Below are positions 31,403 to 54,223 of a stretch of DNA of 64,000 nucleotides, piece after piece. The stretch comes from Phenylobacterium sp. (GTDB lineage Bacteria > Pseudomonadota > Alphaproteobacteria > Caulobacterales > Caulobacteraceae). Positions within the stretch are counted from its first letter, which is position 1; each line of letters begins with the position of its first letter. The notes beneath the pieces are model-generated. The model made no database searches. It saw nothing but the letters and a program-made list of their open reading frames with translations, and was not told the DNA's origin. The DNA lies in the NCBI GenBank assembly GCA_017991675.1, contig JAGOQB010000001.1, positions 372,001 to 436,000 of the forward strand, given 5' to 3'. The translations under genes and the position numbers were made by a program.

Positions 31403-31960
31403 ATGCGCGACGTGTTTCCGGACGCCGTCATCGCCCTGATTCCGATGATGCGCGGCTATGCCATGAGTCTGACACGCTCCAGACCGGAGGCGGACGATCT
31501 GGTTCAGGACACCCTCGTGCGGGCCTGGAGGTTCCGCGCCGCCTACGAACCGGGAACCAACCTGAAGGCCTGGCTCTACAAGATCCTGCGCAACATCTTC
31601 TATTCGAACCATGCCCGTCGCCGCCTGGTGGTCCAGGACGCCGACGGCAAGCTGACGGCCCAGCTGTCCTGCACCCCGCAGCAGGAATGGCAGGTGGAGT
31701 TCAGCGACCTGCTGCGCTCGCTGGACCGCCTGACGCCGGACACCCGCGACGCCCTGCTGCTGATCGTCGTCGCCGGGCTGAGCTACGAGGAGGCCGCCGA
31801 GGTCTGCGGCTGCGCGACCGGCACCTTGAAGAGCCGCGTCAGCCGGGCCCGTGCCCGCCTGGCCGAACTGCTCGACTACGACCTGCCCGCCGCGCGCCGC
31901 CACCTCGCGCGCCGTCCCGCCGCCTCCCGGGGCGCAAATGAACTCCCGGGTCGGGCCTGA
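31403..31960 (+). CDS. ECF RNA polymerase sigma factor, EcfG-like
   Basis: A 185-residue sigma factor with region 2 (EADDLVQDTLVRAWRF, NLKAWLYKILRNIFYSNH) and region 4 (LSYEEAAEVCGCATGTLKSR then VSRARARLAELL). The wording of both regions is close to EcfG-group general-stress sigma factors. No NepR anti-sigma, PhyR or histidine kinase lies nearby, so it is probably a paralogue with other targets. GGAGG lies 11 bases before the ATG. The next gene on the same strand, 47 bp downstream, encodes the coiled-coil beta-barrel protein, which is the obvious candidate for its control. Confidence 0.88.
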   Translation: MRDVFPDAVIALIPMMRGYAMSLTRSRPEADDLVQDTLVRAWRFRAAYEPGTNLKAWLYKILRNIFYSNHARRRLVVQDADGKLTAQLSCTPQQEWQVEFSDLLRSLDRLTPDTRDALLLIVVAGLSYEEAAEVCGCATGTLKSRVSRARARLAELLDYDLPAARRHLARRPAASRGANELPGRA

Positions 31961-32007
31961 CGTTTAGTCGCCGGCTACGGGGATCTCCACAGTTCGGATC
32001 CGAGCAG

Positions 32008-33327
32008 ATGACCACAGCACCTTCCCGCTCCCTGCGCCGACTGGCGATCATCGGCGCCGCGATCGTCACGCTCGCCACCGCCGCCCCCGCCCGGGCCCAG
32101 GAGGATGTCTCGGCCAAGCTGGAGCGCATCGAGGCTTTGCTGCTCGACCAGTCCTCGCGGCTGTCCGCCCAGGAGCGCAAGCTCGCGCAGCAGGCCGCCC
32201 TCATCCAGCAGCAGGACCTAGAACTGCGGGCGCTGCGCGCGACACGGGACGAGGCCCTGTCGGAAATCCGCGCCGGCCGCTCGGCCGCGCCCCAGCAGGC
32301 CGCGCCGCTCAATCCGCCGCTGGGGCCGGCGCCGACGACGACGGCCGCCGCCGCCCCATTGCCGCCCCGGCCGGTGGGCCAGGCCCCGCCCGCGGCGACC
32401 ACCGAACAGAAGGCGCGCGAGGTCGCCGCCATCCCCGAACGCCTGGGCGTGCTGACGCCCGCGGGCCGCTTCGTGTTCGACCCGACCGTCGAGTATGTGC
32501 GCAGCAGCACCAACCGCCTGACCTTCCGGGGGGTCGAAATCGTGCCCGGGATAAACCTTGGCCTGATTGAGGCTGGCGACGCCGATCGCGATTCCGTCGT
32601 CGGCACGCTGGCGGCCCGCTATGGCCTGAGCAACCGGCTGGAGGTCGAGGCCCGCGTCCCCTACGTCTATCGCCACGACCGCATCACCACCGTCGCCGCA
32701 GCCGACCGCGCCGTCACCCGCACCATGGAACTGGACGCCAACGATCTCGGCGACGTCGAGGTGTCGGGGCGCTACCAGCTCAACAGCGGCGACAACGGCT
32801 GGCCGATCTTCGTCGCCGGCCTCCGGGTGAAGTCGGACACCGGCGTCGGCCCCTACGACGTCGACTTCGACGGCTTTGCGGTCGCCAAGGGCCTGGCGAC
32901 GGGCTCAGGCTTCTGGGCCACCGAGTTGGGGCTGACCATGCTCTATCCCAGCGATCCGGCGGTGATCTATGGCGGGGTCAGCTACCTGCACAACTTCGCC
33001 GGCTCGGTGGACAAGGCGGTCGGCAACAACATCTTCGTCGGCGAGGTGGATCCCGGCGACGGCGTCAACGCCAGCATCGGGTTCGGACTGGCCCTCAATC
33101 CGAAATTCTCGGTCTCGTTCGGCTACTCGCACCACTACATCTTCCCGACCGACACCGAGATCAACAACACCACACAGAGCTCCAACAGCCTCTCGATCGG
33201 CGCGCTGCAGATGAGCCTCTCCTACCGCCTGAACCGGCGCCTCACCCTGATCAACAGCTTCGAGTTCGGGGTGACCAGCGATGCGCCGGACATGCGTCTG
33301 ACGGTGCGCGCGCCCTATTCCTTCTGA
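32008..33327 (+). CDS. Outer-membrane beta-barrel protein with N-terminal coiled coil (FapF-like architecture)
   Basis: A 439-residue exported protein. After a signal peptide (residues 1-31, ending APARAQ) come three parts: a heptad-like coiled coil at about 33-80 (KLERIEALLLDQSSRLSAQE onward); a Pro/Ala-rich linker at about 88-135; and a long region of alternating polar/hydrophobic strands from 150 to the end, finishing in Phe (APYSF), as outer-membrane barrels do. Signal, coiled coil, linker and barrel is the layout of FapF, the Pseudomonas amyloid secretion channel. Some members of this class are mis-annotated as acetate kinase. The convergent C39 peptidase gene set supports an export role. 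Sequence homology to FapF is not shown. Confidence 0.68.
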   Translation: MTTAPSRSLRRLAIIGAAIVTLATAAPARAQEDVSAKLERIEALLLDQSSRLSAQERKLAQQAALIQQQDLELRALRATRDEALSEIRAGRSAAPQQAAPLNPPLGPAPTTTAAAAPLPPRPVGQAPPAATTEQKAREVAAIPERLGVLTPAGRFVFDPTVEYVRSSTNRLTFRGVEIVPGINLGLIEAGDADRDSVVGTLAARYGLSNRLEVEARVPYVYRHDRITTVAAADRAVTRTMELDANDLGDVEVSGRYQLNSGDNGWPIFVAGLRVKSDTGVGPYDVDFDGFAVAKGLATGSGFWATELGLTMLYPSDPAVIYGGVSYLHNFAGSVDKAVGNNIFVGEVDPGDGVNASIGFGLALNPKFSVSFGYSHHYIFPTDTEINNTTQSSNSLSIGALQMSLSYRLNRRLTLINSFEFGVTSDAPDMRLTVRAPYSF

Positions 33328-33339
33328 TGCCCCCTAATG

Positions 33340-33900
33340 TCAGGGGCGGGCTGCGTCGCGCAGCGCCGCGCCGACCGCCTCCATCATGCGCATATTGGCG
33401 CGTTCCTGCACGGCCGCCTGCTGGAACTGCGTCAGCTCGGGGATCGCCAGGTCGATCTGCACCTCCTGGCGGATGTCGCGATTGCTCGCCGTATTGACGA
33501 CGATGTTGGAGATGCGCGCCGCGCTCAGCTCGTGCAGCACGACGGTCGATCCGCCGTCTCCGGCCAGCGCCACTCCGGGCAGTTGCGCCGCGCCCTCCGA
33601 TAGCGTGACCTGACCGCCCTGCCCCTGGCTCGCAAGGGGCGGCGCCGATTGCGTCTGCGTGGCCCCGAGGTCGGTCCAGACCAGCTTGGTTTCCAGGACC
33701 AGGGCGCCGTCGACAAAGGTGCGCACCGACGCCCCGAACCCGACCTCCATCCCGGTCGGCAACCGCAGGCCGCCCCGCTCCGCCGCCAGCTCCTGATCGC
33801 TCAGCGCAGCGCCGCCGCCGACCGCCTGCTGCGCCGACGCGCCGCCGACGCCGATGACGAGGCTCACGATCAGCGCGGCGAGGATCGAGGCGTAGCGCAT
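33340..33900 (-). CDS. Exported protein with double-glycine motif, last gene of the C39 set
   Basis: A 186-residue exported protein (signal peptide 1-23, ending GGASAQ). Residues 33-44 read LSDQELAAERGG, which fits the double-glycine leader consensus LSxxELxxIxGG at every position except -4. A later motif, NIVVNTASNRDIRQ (residues 132-145), parallels NFVVNTGNNNNLQ in the 128-residue protein of the same set. The C-terminal 40 residues are helical and Gln-rich. It begins 4 bp after the C39 peptidase stop. No family is recognised; it may be a peptidase substrate or an assembly partner. Confidence 0.75.
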   Translation of the reverse strand: MRYASILAALIVSLVIGVGGASAQQAVGGGAALSDQELAAERGGLRLPTGMEVGFGASVRTFVDGALVLETKLVWTDLGATQTQSAPPLASQGQGGQVTLSEGAAQLPGVALAGDGGSTVVLHELSAARISNIVVNTASNRDIRQEVQIDLAIPELTQFQQAAVQERANMRMMEAVGAALRDAARP

Positions 33901-33904
33901 GGCG

Positions 33905-34627
33905 TCAGAACCCGGCTGCCGGCCGGTTCTCCCAGACCACCTGGTAGAGCGGCGGCAGCTGCATCGTGAGCGCGGCCAGGGACTCGTCGGTCAACGGCTG
34001 GCCGACCAGCGGCGTCGTGGCCGCCGCCCATTCATACGAGGTGTTGTACAGGCCGCGGCCCGGACCGGAGTGGATCCCGAAAATGATTCCGCTCCAGATA
34101 CTCTCGAACTCGGCCTGGCGGTAGGACTTGAGCCCCAGCGCCGGGTCGCCGACCAGGATGCGGCCCGCGCCTGCGCCCTTCACCACCACGAAGTGCTTGT
34201 AGGTCCCGACCGTGATCACCGCGATCGACGGCCACTTGGCGTGGACCAGGGCGTCCGCATCGATGCGGTAGCCGTCGGCCTTGTAGCCGCGCGCCTCCAG
34301 GTAGCGCTTCATGTCGAGCAGCGAGAAGCCCACCTTCTGGATCTTCGCCTGATCGCCTTCGGCGTACATCGCCTTGAAGATGTCGATCTCGGTGACGTCG
34401 ACGCCGTAGTGATAGCGCAGCAGCGTCGCCAGCGCGGCCGAGCCGCAGCTGTAGTCGTACTGCTGACGCACGACCGTTTGGAACGGCATGTCGCGAAAGG
34501 TCGTGACGCGATCGAGCGCATAGAGCGATCCGCCGTCCGAAAAGGCGATCTGCGCAGTCGCCGGGCTCGTCAGCGCCAGCGCGGCGGCGATCGCTGCGAC
34601 GGCCAATTGTCGACCCTGACGCGGCAT
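33905..34627 (-). CDS. Periplasmic C39-family cysteine peptidase (FapD-like)
   Basis: A 240-residue stand-alone C39 (double-glycine) peptidase. Signal peptide 1-26 (ALALTSPATAQ) predicts a periplasmic enzyme. Catalytic residues are visible: Cys61 in QQYDYSCGSAALATLL with the oxyanion Gln at about 56, His145 in GTYKHFVVVKG and Asp161 in VGDPALG. There is no ABC or membrane domain, unlike bacteriocin exporters; stand-alone C39 proteins of this type include FapD. The ATG at 34627 is preferred to the TTG at 34651, which overlaps the preceding gene. Two neighbouring exported proteins carry double-glycine motifs it could cleave. Confidence 0.88.
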   Translation of the reverse strand: MPRQGRQLAVAAIAAALALTSPATAQIAFSDGGSLYALDRVTTFRDMPFQTVVRQQYDYSCGSAALATLLRYHYGVDVTEIDIFKAMYAEGDQAKIQKVGFSLLDMKRYLEARGYKADGYRIDADALVHAKWPSIAVITVGTYKHFVVVKGAGAGRILVGDPALGLKSYRQAEFESIWSGIIFGIHSGPGRGLYNTSYEWAAATTPLVGQPLTDESLAALTMQLPPLYQVVWENRPAAGF

Positions 34628-34637
34628 GACGCTGCGC

Positions 34638-35024
34638 CTAGGGTCCGCCAAGGGTGGCGATATTGACGCTGATCACGCCCTGCAGGTTGTTGTTGTTGCC
34701 GGTGTTGACGACGAAGTTGCCGATCCCGGAATAGTCGCCGGTCGAGAAATCGACATTTCCCGTGGCGACCTGGTCGGCCGCGATCGATCCGGAGTTGCTG
34801 GCCGAAAGCTGCTGGTTCGACAGCGCTTCGACGACCACCCCCTGCCCGCCGCTGATGGCGCCGAGCTCGGTCTCGCCGATCGGCGCGGCCCTAAGCCCTT
34901 CCGGCGCGGCCGCCGCCTCTGCAGGCGCAGCGGGGCGCGCGGCCGGTGCATCCTCGGCCAGCGCGGAGCCTGCGGCTCCCATGACGACCAGACCAGCCAG
35001 CCCACCGAACTTCCACCTGGACAT
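34638..35024 (-). CDS. Exported Asn/Gly-rich protein with double-glycine motif
   Basis: A 128-residue exported protein: signal peptide 1-23 (ending GSALAE), an Ala/Pro-rich stretch at 28-42, then ETELGAISGG at 51-60, a textbook double-glycine processing site (Glu -8, Leu -7, Ile -4, Gly-Gly). Beyond it is a beta-prone region rich in Ser, Asn, Gly and Val, ending with GNFVVNTGNNNNLQ at 102-115. Cleavage would release a 68-residue peptide. Asn/Gly/Gln spacing of this kind recalls amyloid-subunit repeats (Fap, curli), but no family is confirmed. GGAGG precedes the ATG at 35024. Confidence 0.78.
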   Translation of the reverse strand: MSRWKFGGLAGLVVMGAAGSALAEDAPAARPAAPAEAAAAPEGLRAAPIGETELGAISGGQGVVVEALSNQQLSASNSGSIAADQVATGNVDFSTGDYSGIGNFVVNTGNNNNLQGVISVNIATLGGP

Positions 35025-35098
35025 CGCTCCCTCCAAATCGCCGAAGCCGCGGATGCGAGTACGGGCCGGCCTCCAGGCGGACGCCGGCCCGAGTACGC

Positions 35099-35641
35099 TT
35101 ACGGAGCGCCGAAGCTGATGTTGGCGTTCGCCGACAGCGACGTGGCGGCTTGGCCCAGCGAATTGATGCCGGAATTGACGTTGGCGGTCTGGATCCCGCC
35201 GAACGCTGCACCGTCAATCGACGCGCTACCGGTCGTGATGGCTCCCGTCGCGCCGTCCCCGCCCGTCACGTAGACCGGAGCCCCCGAAACTTCTCCGGCG
35301 AGCGTCTGCGTGGATTCCGCCGCGTAGGTCGAACTGGTCGAATTATCGGAATTGTCGGAGCTGTCCGAGTTATCCGAGTTATCCGAGTTGTTCGAATTGT
35401 CCGAGTTGTTCGAATTATCGGAATTGTCCGAATTGTCCGAGTTGTTCGAGTGATCGGAATTGTCGGAGTTGTCAGAGTTATTCGAATTGTCCGAGTTATT
35501 CGAACTGTCCGTGGTGTTCTGCGTCACCGTCGCCGACGAACCATTGTCGGTGGTCGTGTTGTCGACCTGCGCGATGGCCATGGTGCTCATGCCGAGGCCG
35601 ATCACCAACGCGGCGGCCGAAGTGAGAAGCTTGGATTTCAT
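35099..35641 (-). CDS. Exported Ser/Asp/Asn tandem-repeat protein
   Basis: A 180-residue exported protein and first gene of the C39 set. Signal peptide 1-24 (ending MAIAQ) is followed by a Thr/Asn-rich stretch; residues 46-101 are built of Asn-Ser-Asp/Asn-Ser-Asn triplets; then a Gly/Ala-rich beta-prone tail. The tail contains GIQTANVNSGINSLGQ (149-164), related in spacing to the terminal motifs of the two downstream proteins and to Fap-type repeats (N-x-N-x-G-x-N-x3-Q). It is very acidic and could bind calcium or act as a flexible spacer in a surface fibre. GGGAGG lies 8 bases before the ATG. Confidence 0.78.
   Translation of the reverse strand: MKSKLLTSAAALVIGLGMSTMAIAQVDNTTTDNGSSATVTQNTTDSSNNSDNSNNSDNSDNSDHSNNSDNSDNSDNSNNSDNSNNSDNSDNSDSSDNSDNSTSSTYAAESTQTLAGEVSGAPVYVTGGDGATGAITTGSASIDGAAFGGIQTANVNSGINSLGQAATSLSANANISFGAP
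35339..35506 (-). repeat. In-frame short tandem repeat (Asn-Ser-Asp/Asn units)
   Basis: About 168 bp of imperfect 9-bp units varying on TTATCCGAG / TTGTCCGAA / TTGTTCGAA (plus strand). All keep the reading frame, so slippage by whole units would alter only repeat length. Confidence 0.85.
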
Positions 35642-35779
35642 AAGGTCACCCTCCCAGGGTCGCTGATGTCTGGAGGCGCCTGTCCTCCGGCCGCCAGAAC
35701 CGGCGGGACATGGGGAGAGTTCGGATCACATGACCGTGAGCCCGATTTGTGAACCGCCTGCGGCTCCGACCGGGACATG

Positions 35780-52771: not shown

Positions 52772-54223
52772 CTAGCCGAGGCGTCCTTCGTAGAGACGGC
52801 GCAGGATGCTCGGCGCCAGGCCCGGCAGGTCCTCGGCGATCAGCCCCGGCCCATGCAGCTCGGCCGCCTCAGCATGGATCCAGGCGCCCGCGCAGGCCGC
52901 CTCGAAGCTCTCCATGCCCTGGGCGATCAGCGAGCCGATGAAGCCCGCCAGCACGTCGCCCGAGCCTGCCGTCGCCAGCCACGGCGAACCGTTGGCGTTG
53001 ACGCAGGCGCGTCCGTCCGGGGCGGCGATGACGGTGTCGGCGCCCTTCAGCAGCACGATGGCGTCGGCCTGCTGCGCCGCACGACGGGCCGCGGCGATGC
53101 GGTCCGGCGCCTCCTTCAACAGGCCAGGGAACAGCCGCTCGAACTCGCCAGGGTGCGGGGTGAGCACGTCGTCCACGTCCAGAACCGAGAACAGCTCCTC
53201 CGGATCGTCGCGGAAGACGGTGATGGCGTCGGCGTCGATGACCAGCGCCGCGCCGGTCCGCGCCAAGGCCAGGACGTTGACCAGGGTGTTCTCGGTGACG
53301 CCCGCCGCCGGGCCGATAATGGCGGCGTCGACGTCCGCGGCGGCCTGCTCGAGCTCGGCTTCGGTGTCGAAGCCCTTGAGCATCACCGCCTCCAGGTGGG
53401 CGGCGTTCACCGACAGCGCCTCGCTCGGCGACAGCAGAGTGACGACGCCTGCTCCCATCCGCAGCCCCGCCCGCGCCGACAAGCGCGCCGCTCCGGTGCT
53501 CCAGGCCTCGCCCGACACCACCACCAGGCGGCCGCGCGCGTGTTTGTGGGAATTGGGCTTGGGCCAGGGAAAGCCGGCCAGCCAGGCTTCCGGGCCGTTC
53601 TCGATCAGATCGCTGGCCGTCTCGGCCAGGCCGATGTCGGCCACCACCACCTCGCCGCAGAGCTCATGCCCGGGCTGCAGCACGTGAGCGGGCTTCTTGG
53701 CGTGGAAGGTCACCGTCAGGCCGGCGACCACCACCGGACCGCGCGGATCGCCCGTGTCGCCCGGCAGGCCGGACGGGACGTCCACCGCGACGACGCTCTC
53801 GGGATATGCGGCCAGGCGCCCGGCCATGACCGCCGCCTCGCCGTTGAGCGGCCGCGCCAGCCCCGCCCCGAACATGGCGTCGATGTAGAGACGCGCCTCC
53901 AGCGGCGCGTCCCAGGCGCTCAGGCCGCCGTCCCAGAGGGCGGCCGCCGCCTTGGCGTCGGCGCTCTGCGGCTCGCCCAGCGCCCGCACCTCGACCGGCC
54001 AGCCGCGGGCCTTGAGCAGCCTGGCCGCCACATAGCCGTCGCCGCCATTGTTGCCCGGCCCGCACAGCACGCAGACCGAACGCTGCGAGAAGCGCTCGGC
54101 GATGGCGTCGGCGACGGCCGCGCCGGCGCGCTCCATCAGTTCGGATCCGGGCGTGCCCGCCGCGATGGCCAAGCGATCAGCCGCGGCGATTTCCGCGACC
54201 GTGAGAATCTTGCGCGCAGCCAC
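52772..54223 (-). CDS. nnrDE: Bifunctional NAD(P)HX epimerase/dehydratase
   Basis: A 483-residue fusion that repairs hydrated NAD(P)H. The N-terminal epimerase half (about 1-215) has VCVLCGPGNNGGDGYVAARL and VVAVDVPSGLPGDTGD. The C-terminal dehydratase half (about 225-483) has AIIGPAAGVTENTL, VLTPHPGEFERLFPG, VLLKGADTVIAAPDG and ATAGSGDVLAGFIGSL, where the Asp of GSGD is catalytic. The dehydratase half uses ADP (or ATP) to restore NADH/NADPH. The start is GTG 54223. Length is standard for the fusion. Confidence 0.95.
   Translation of the reverse strand: MAARKILTVAEIAAADRLAIAAGTPGSELMERAGAAVADAIAERFSQRSVCVLCGPGNNGGDGYVAARLLKARGWPVEVRALGEPQSADAKAAAALWDGGLSAWDAPLEARLYIDAMFGAGLARPLNGEAAVMAGRLAAYPESVVAVDVPSGLPGDTGDPRGPVVVAGLTVTFHAKKPAHVLQPGHELCGEVVVADIGLAETASDLIENGPEAWLAGFPWPKPNSHKHARGRLVVVSGEAWSTGAARLSARAGLRMGAGVVTLLSPSEALSVNAAHLEAVMLKGFDTEAELEQAAADVDAAIIGPAAGVTENTLVNVLALARTGAALVIDADAITVFRDDPEELFSVLDVDDVLTPHPGEFERLFPGLLKEAPDRIAAARRAAQQADAIVLLKGADTVIAAPDGRACVNANGSPWLATAGSGDVLAGFIGSLIAQGMESFEAACAGAWIHAEAAELHGPGLIAEDLPGLAPSILRRLYEGRLG

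Follow-up and report, generated by a model that had tools for sequence, protein, structure and literature searches.

A five-gene Fap-like locus in Phenylobacterium: a sister variant of Fap with a predicted FapD cleavage motif in its FapE-like protein

The closest described relatives of the genes considered here are the Fap systems (functional amyloid in Pseudomonas, fapABCDEF), by which Pseudomonas places amyloid fibres at its surface and in which a Sec-exported C39 peptidase, FapD, is found together with FapF, an outer-membrane barrel with a coiled coil and a linker. Secretion of FapC is abolished by the active-site mutation C38A in FapD, making protease activity essential, and in Pseudomonas sp. 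UK4 FapE alone shows complete N-terminal processing while the FapF linker is potentially processed (Rouse et al. 2017, PMC5557850). The same paper calls the target of FapD unclear, states that Fap proteins lack canonical C39 sequences and notes GG/GA motifs in FapE and FapF. A 2025 review names the FapF linker and the N-terminus of FapE as the presumed sites of FapD action (PMC12822426). FapE processing is thus an idea already in print. Fap was placed in Beta-, Gamma- and Deltaproteobacteria only by a 2013 survey (PMC3792158), and a 2018 update added five more phyla in which homologues of fapD and fapF are co-located (PMC6173800). Here we describe positions 32008-35641 of a 64,000-nucleotide stretch of a Phenylobacterium sp. 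genome (the window; GenBank assembly GCA_017991675.1, contig JAGOQB010000001.1, positions 372,001 to 436,000). We consider it likely that the five genes found there form a divergent, second-clade Fap-type system which exports and assembles fibres by way of leader trimming by a FapD-like peptidase.

Of the five genes, one encodes an outer-membrane barrel and one a stand-alone C39 peptidase; the products of the other three are small exported proteins of 186, 132 and 180 residues. A preliminary description, made from the sequence alone, had given exactly these bounds and this content and had likened the barrel to FapF and the peptidase to FapD, and both likenesses were borne out. The barrel matched the NCBIfam FapF model (E = 4.9e−41, 140.9 bits), and a profile of the barrel and 46 relatives found the solved FapF chains of the PDB at E = 2.7e−63, with the next chain at E = 0.044. 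Its AlphaFold2 (AF2) monomer model (predicted local distance difference test, pLDDT, 81.8) consists of a long helix at residues 34-91, a low-confidence stretch at about 94-141 and a barrel at 155-434, and the top 18 rows of a Foldseek search with this model were all FapF chains (best E = 1.1e−23; template modelling score 0.85 by target and 0.57 by query). The next-best barrel fold, the COG4313 channel 4rl8, was a weaker match (E = 6.7e−13), and no C39 partner is reported for such channels in the relevant passages of PMC6173800. By sequence profile and predicted fold the barrel is a true FapF relative, complete with N-terminal coiled coil and linker. Its closest relatives come from genome G996, which has the same genus code (96% identity), and from the Phenylobacterium loci L002 (92%), L001 (90%) and L003 (78%).

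The peptidase has an AxA-type signal sequence and no ATP-binding cassette (ABC) domain among its Pfam matches. It matched Pfam C39 (PF03412; E = 4.4e−22, 78.8 bits, gathering score 22) and, among NCBIfam models, FapD (E = 2.4e−45, 154.5 bits), then FilB (E = 4.1e−36) and then the bacteriocin exporter NHLP ABC1 (E = 1.7e−12). Of 148 aligned relatives, 146 have Q63, 147 have C69, 147 have H153 and all 148 have D169, and on these alignments the peptidase is a FapD relative with intact catalytic residues. No second C39 was found in the genome, which comprises 3.03 Mb and is 70.7% complete.

On the minus strand the genes read in the order 180-residue protein, 132-residue protein, peptidase and 186-residue protein. 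The gaps between them are 62, 10 (measured to the peptidase ATG) and 4 bases, which makes a single operon probable for these four; the order is that of fapC-D-E with the gene of the 132-residue protein inserted before fapD. The barrel gene lies on the plus strand, 12 bases away and convergent with the other four as first described, and the locus is not a single fapABCDEF-type operon. AxA-type signal sequences were recognised in all three small proteins as in the peptidase, by eye rather than by predictor.

We compared the family of the 186-residue protein (69 members) with 28 classical FapE proteins using hhalign and obtained a probability of 94.7 and a score of 52.3, against 13.6 for the best of 40 column shuffles. 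Removal of the leader lowered the score to 28.6 (best shuffle 12.5) and the probability to just 38. The protein itself did not match the NCBIfam FapE model NF058559 at E ≤ 1, and the same model matched 1 of 42 members of the family alignment (E = 0.0023). By profile-profile comparison the 186-residue protein is a remote FapE relative. Of 31 classical loci, 28 had a gene in the FapE slot. In the AF2 model for the window's protein (pLDDT 80.7), a helix at residues 35-42 and RGG at 42-44 are followed by a confident beta domain, with no PDB fold match or solved relative at E ≤ 0.001. Neither the likeness of this protein to FapE nor the leader motif discussed below was part of the preliminary description.

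The three small proteins had been described as Asn/Gly/Ser-rich, which fits the 180-residue protein (16.1% N, 20.6% S) but not the FapE-like one (2.2% N). They had also been said to end in a related motif recalling the amyloid repeats of FapC. The motif is present as described (NIVVNTASNRDIRQ in the 186-residue, NFVVNTGNNNNLQ in the 132-residue and NVNSGINSLGQ in the 180-residue protein), but in the FapE-like protein it ends about 40 residues before the C-terminus. In profile comparisons with 60 column shuffles as control, the 132-residue family was linked to the 180-residue family (probability 94, score 36.6; best shuffle 13.4), to the 186-residue family (probability 66, score 24.8; best shuffle 12.7) and, through its C-terminus, to the classical FapB/FapC repeat (probability 85, score 25.05; best shuffle 13.08). 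A direct comparison of the 180- and 186-residue families failed (score 8.8; 8 of 60 shuffles equally high). From these links and the failed direct comparisons we take the shared motif to be real by way of the 132-residue, one-repeat protein, but the proteins not to be FapB or FapC. Pfam gave low-complexity or chance matches at most for the three small proteins, and none of the five proteins matched a curli family (CsgA/CsgG) in Pfam at E ≤ 1.

Several results count against a Fap assignment. The matches to FapF and FapD fall far short of the NCBIfam equivalog cut-offs (140.9 of 700 and 154.5 of 330 bits), and the search with FapA-F profiles which the preliminary description had called for thus established FapF and FapD homology but missed every Fap cut-off. 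None of the three small proteins matched the NCBIfam models for FapA (two models), FapB, FapC or FapE at E ≤ 1, and these models do recognise the proteins of the Pseudomonas-type locus L157. A hidden Markov model of the classical FapB/FapC repeat (72 repeats from 22 loci) found no window protein at E < 0.1, and the C-termini of the 180- and 186-residue families failed against the classical repeat in profile comparison (14 of 60 and 20 of 60 shuffles equally high); the claimed likeness to Fap repeats therefore stands for the 132-residue protein and not directly for the other two. The comparison of the FapE-like family with FapE also drops to the low probability given above once the leader is removed.

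Because no Fap cut-off was reached and the classical repeat model was negative, we place the locus in a sister clade and not in classical Fap: the window's system is a sister variant of Fap with its own subunits. In common with Fap it has the FapF-type barrel, the Sec-exported C39 peptidase, a FapE relative adjoining the peptidase gene, a repeat-bearing exported subunit upstream and a leader motif in FapE; it differs in its separate barrel clade, in the lack of a FapA match, in having one remote repeat, found by profile in the 132-residue protein, in place of FapB and FapC with three imperfect repeats, in its convergent barrel gene and in RGG where classical FapE has RGR or RGK. The homology of F, D and E would also be expected of an ordinary classical Fap operon which has diverged in this lineage, and among the 16 genera of the 2013 survey, 4 had a separated fapF and 6 had no fapA (PMC3792158). 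We give this explanation very little chance: of the 120 rows of a barrel tree, the 33 that are classical form one side of a branch (Shimodaira-Hasegawa-like approximate likelihood ratio test 100, length 0.80) with the window outside, three-repeat subunits are lacking, and both types occur in each of the genomes G735 (L160 and L164) and G017 (L110 and L133). The tree left out 22 near-alike Halomonas-group loci and barrels of more than 620 residues, and two contig-edge fragments, L072 and L080, were relabelled from second clade to classical after the tree was seen.

The gene set was found to be conserved well beyond the window. A relative of the barrel (E ≤ 1e−10) occurs in 28 of 249 genomes of the window's own family (24 of the 228 of good quality). 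We examined 20 of these 28, and among the 26 loci made up of the window, L001-L005 and those 20, all five slots were present together in 24, with the profile for the 180-residue slot built from the same 26 loci; one of the misses, L180, starts at a contig end. A survey of this kind, for Caulobacterales, and the structure check of the barrel had been proposed at the outset; the conservation seen here, together with the FapF sequence and fold and the FapD homology, supports the original notion of a Fap-like export and assembly system. In a scan of named genomes the best 80 of 85 stretches encoding a C39 relative were kept as loci; in L006-L080, a set of 75 loci that includes some classical ones, 62 had the full set of barrel, peptidase, FapE-like and one-repeat genes, as did 20 of another 25 loci of the second clade. 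Across 24 classical loci, matches were obtained in 9 with the FapE-like profile and in 3 with the one-repeat profile. It should be noted that the gene-set counts, and those leader counts below that were not dereplicated, hold duplicates, since L005 and L189 are apparently one contig and likewise L004 and L169. Iterated searches with the FapE-like, one-repeat and subunit profiles were also tried; these profiles drifted, recruiting each other's members, and the iterated counts were therefore rejected in favour of non-iterated profiles with exclusive assignment.

We also examined the N-termini of the small proteins. Behind the Sec signals of the FapE-like and the one-repeat protein there is in each case a motif spaced like the double-glycine leaders of bacteriocins, the consensus of which is of the LSxxELxxIxGG type, and in the FapE-like protein it stands ahead of a folded domain; the helix and RGG of the AF2 model are as would be expected of a removable leader. 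In dereplicated sets, using a looser pattern judged solely against 200 shuffles of the same sequences, the motif was found in 80 of 85 FapE-like proteins (shuffled mean 13.3, maximum 23) and 27 of 27 classical FapE (mean 3.4, maximum 9), and a related motif in 46 of 81 one-repeat proteins (mean 7.3, maximum 14). The major subunit slot (1/29; mean 0.9, maximum 4) and the peptidase slot (8/72; mean 11.4, maximum 19) were at chance level. A first, stricter pattern missed obvious cases such as VSDDALADMRGRY and gave the same contrast: 68/114 FapE-like, 51/111 one-repeat and 19/29 classical FapE proteins (shuffled maxima 10, 6 and 3), against 0/39 subunits and 1/116 peptidases (maxima 2 and 9). Two rows were dropped ahead of the counts, L081, which duplicates the window's locus, and L117, a 1,905-base contig end; L072 was left out of the leader counts with the looser pattern and L080 out of the dereplicated one. 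The commonest residues in second-clade FapE-like proteins read LSDxELxxMRGGF, with R in 89% and E in 64%, neither of which the search pattern demands, and the classical motif reads L-S-D-x-E-L-A-x-M-R-G-[R/K]-[Y/F]. In the four Pseudomonas-type loci, defined by a FapF above the NCBIfam cut-off, all four FapE carry it and it is absent from FapB (4), FapF (4) and FapC (3; none matched in L155); one match in FapD overlaps the signal sequence and one in FapA lies at the far C-terminus.

We propose that the FapD-type peptidase cuts FapE at this predicted leader. Extended to all Fap-type systems, from Pseudomonas to Caulobacteraceae, the proposal would be that FapD cuts FapE, and in many lineages also the one-repeat protein, after L-S-D-x-E-L-x-x-M-R-G-[G/R/K] and so licenses export through FapF, and that classical Fap is one branch of a larger C39-plus-barrel export family; taken together, these are statements towards which we lean by a little. 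A conserved FapD cleavage motif is not found in the passages on Fap in the literature cited here, and the predicted one appears to be new.

The motif could instead be a structural or binding element of FapE, such as a helix docking to the barrel, with FapD acting elsewhere, for instance on the FapF linker, the cleavage of which was raised by Rouse et al. 2017 (PMC5557850). The barrel slot does show the motif somewhat in excess, in 16 of 68 sequences with the looser pattern (shuffled mean 8.0, maximum 16) and in 16 of 114 with the stricter one (mean 3.1, maximum 7); most of the listed barrel matches resemble coiled-coil sequence, which shuffling destroys, but a few resemble leaders. Classical FapE has no GG at the site: its last motif position is Arg or Lys, which is unusual for a C39 site, where Gly is the residue usually required. 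Further points sit uneasily with cleavage at the motif: 35 of the 81 one-repeat proteins are without it as defined, and the second-clade FapE-like set was selected by a model which includes the motif region, whereas the classical set was selected by gene position alone. In L157 the FapE motif ends near residue 40 of the likely precursor, as against the first 70 or so residues of UK4 FapE from which no peptides are recorded in the passages of PMC5557850 on processing. A structural role is nonetheless unlikely in our view, because the spacing and helix fit a double-glycine leader, the motif recurs in the one-repeat slot, FapE is N-terminally processed (PMC5557850) and FapF lacks the motif in the four Pseudomonas-type loci. 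Columns differing between classical and second-clade FapD were also compared and showed no clear specificity pocket.

A leader-like motif was observed near the N-terminus of the FapF-like barrel itself in two loci, L166 (LSDDELGEARGG) and L162 (LAPDDLVTMRGR), so FapD may cut FapF in some lineages.

For the window's system, the following course of events would fit a Fap-type exporter. All five proteins would cross the inner membrane by Sec, and in the periplasm the FapD-like peptidase would remove the double-glycine-type leader of the FapE-like protein, cutting after ...ELAAERGG, and probably also trim the one-repeat protein after ...ELGAISGG. Trimming would license export through the FapF-like barrel, the pore of which would be gated by the coiled coil and linker, and the repeat-bearing proteins would assemble outside. 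The N/S/D-rich 180-residue protein is the likely main subunit, the one-repeat protein may be a minor subunit or nucleator, and the FapE-like protein may act as export starter or anchor.

Peptidase-containing ABC exporters of bacteriocins and NHLP share the C39 family and the LSxxELxxIxGG-type leader with this locus; here, by contrast, the peptidase lacks an ABC transporter and bears a signal sequence, and the proteins proposed as its substrates have Sec signals of their own. A bacteriocin-type leader in two substrates, the rank of NHLP ABC1 behind FapD and FilB among the peptidase matches, and at most one weak repeat per protein as against three in FapB and FapC (PMC12392863) are what would be expected if the cluster secreted non-amyloid surface proteins or peptides, as an adhesive coat or a signal, with the C39 peptidase maturing double-glycine precursors in the periplasm and the shared module being a beta domain. 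We regard this as improbable: the barrel and peptidase are closest to FapF and FapD, the FapE-like partner is held in common with Fap, and the repeat of the 132-residue protein resembles that of FapB and FapC. The Fil system of Acinetobacter, a putative pilus system (NCBIfam FilB/FilC), has a related C39 peptidase (124.8 bits) and barrel (59.9 bits); its cut-offs of 475 and 630 are far from reached, and FapD and FapF score higher.

The second clade is not confined to this genome or to Alphaproteobacteria. Its 87 rows in the barrel tree include, among those named, Alphaproteobacteria (n = 20), Gammaproteobacteria (n = 15), Desulfuromonadia (n = 3), Betaproteobacteria (n = 2) and single others. 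Geobacter kin are also represented in the clade. In a gammaproteobacterial sample the FapF model (E ≤ 1e−3) matched in 69 of 369 genomes and in none of 14 control genomes: 16 genomes gave 307-456 bits, 18 gave 111-171 bits, which is the window's range, G017 belonged to both groups, and 36 genomes had matches of 78 bits or less only, many of them partial. The FapD model (E ≤ 1e−3) matched in 42 of 289 alphaproteobacterial genomes, with at least 145 bits in 11 including the window's own; this model alone is unspecific, because 7 of the 14 control genomes match it weakly and many weak matches lie in frames of at least 700 residues. In a phylum sample a C39 relative (E ≤ 1e−20) was found in 38 of 398 genomes.

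The preliminary description had called the system undescribed. This holds for the FapE-like and one-repeat partners and for the leader motif, none of which was found in the literature passages on Fap, but co-located homologues of fapD and fapF were described in the 2018 update (PMC6173800), and lineages which seem new here could already be listed in its Fig. S1 or genus list. Literature searches for FapD together with FapF, and for the fap operon as a functional amyloid, in Alphaproteobacteria returned no papers, supplements being outside their scope. Clusters had to show FapB/C-repeat homology to be retained in the 2025 GTDB survey (PMC12392863), and repeat-based surveys of this kind would probably miss the second clade. 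Many C39-plus-barrel systems may build surface structures from one-repeat subunits of a kind not found in the Fap literature cited, and through the second clade, Alphaproteobacteria, Halomonas and Geobacter kin become sources of candidates for surface-fibre systems. The chief value of the locus is a testable FapD cleavage site: comparison with Pseudomonas Fap suggests which protein the FapD-type protease trims and at which site. Since the motif is common to FapE of two distant clades and at chance level in the peptidase and main subunit slots, the question of the FapD target becomes a small mutational experiment.

Table 1 Features of the Fap-like locus (window positions unless a locus is named)
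Feature	Position	Strand	Remarks
FapF-like outer-membrane barrel, 439 residues	32008..33327	+	signal; coiled coil about 34-91; Pro-rich disordered linker about 94-141; barrel 155-434
FapE-like exported protein, 186 residues	33340..33900	-	signal, leader helix, RGG, beta domain 52-152, C-terminal helix 154-184
Shared module NIVVNTASNRDIRQ of FapE-like protein, residues 132-145	33466..33507	-	profile link to 132-residue family
Predicted FapD recognition/cleavage motif LSDQELAAERGG-L, residues 33-45 of FapE-like protein	33766..33804	-	counts in relatives, logo
FapD-like stand-alone C39 peptidase	33905..34651	-	TTG start as listed; ATG at codon 9, 34627; Q63, C69, H153, D169
One-repeat exported protein, 132 residues	34638..35036	-	ATG at codon 5
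Fap-like repeat SGIGNFVVNTGNNNNLQGVISVNI in 132-residue protein	34659..34730	-	profile comparison with classical FapB/FapC repeat
Predicted leader motif IGETELGAISGG-Q, residues 53-65 of 132-residue protein	34842..34880	-	related motif in relatives
Candidate major subunit, 180 residues	35099..35641	-	signal, N/S/D-rich tract, conserved C-terminal module
C-terminal module AAFGGIQTANVNSGINSLGQAATSLSANANISFGAP of candidate major subunit	35102..35209	-	alignment of the family's C-termini; conserved in relatives
9-base-periodic tract encoding N/S/D-rich stretch	35303..35528	-	17 overlapping copies, 9-base spacing
Extracytoplasmic function (ECF) sigma factor gene	31403..31960	+	47 bases upstream of barrel gene; NCBIfam PRK12547 E 1.9e−56, 190.4 bits, cut-off 219
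Extra small gene of classical fap operons	L102 6267-6581; L103 1864-2199; L104 6249-6668; L114 5479-5847; L158 8001-8444		also L077, L112

The ECF sigma factor upstream of the barrel gene is possibly a dedicated regulator. Relatives of it adjoin the barrel in L001-L003 and, among 20 further loci, in L172, L173, L175 and L177; a fifth match in the same 20 loci (E ≤ 1e−20), in L182, does not adjoin the barrel. Upstream of the 180-residue gene there is a block, CACGGTCATGTGATCCGAACTCTCC (window 35714-35738), which is identical in 4 of 5 Phenylobacterium-type loci and has a one-base change in the fifth. Its core reads AGTTCGGATC on the plus strand, opposite to the direction of the 180-residue gene, and the same core stands at 31991-32000, directly ahead of the ATG of the barrel and in the barrel's direction, with one further copy in the window at 54138. 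A scan for sigma-70-type promoters gave no sites.

Classical-type Fap operons were also observed in Alphaproteobacteria, in L079 (Erythrobacter rubeus), L160, L161 and L162. Some classical gammaproteobacterial fap operons contain an extra small upstream gene, which may be a seventh fap gene not yet described; by eye, it shows one repeat-like end, a leader-like motif and a stretch resembling VILWDE. Near L102, L104, L118, L119, L120 and L157 there is a regulator-like protein that ends in a Fis-type helix-turn-helix (GVSRVTLYRL or SRPTFYRL). G463 has a second, weaker FapF-like barrel and G1195 a second C39 peptidase, each in addition to a classical-type match; these extras, perhaps from the same genome, are perhaps a further barrel-plus-C39 pair.

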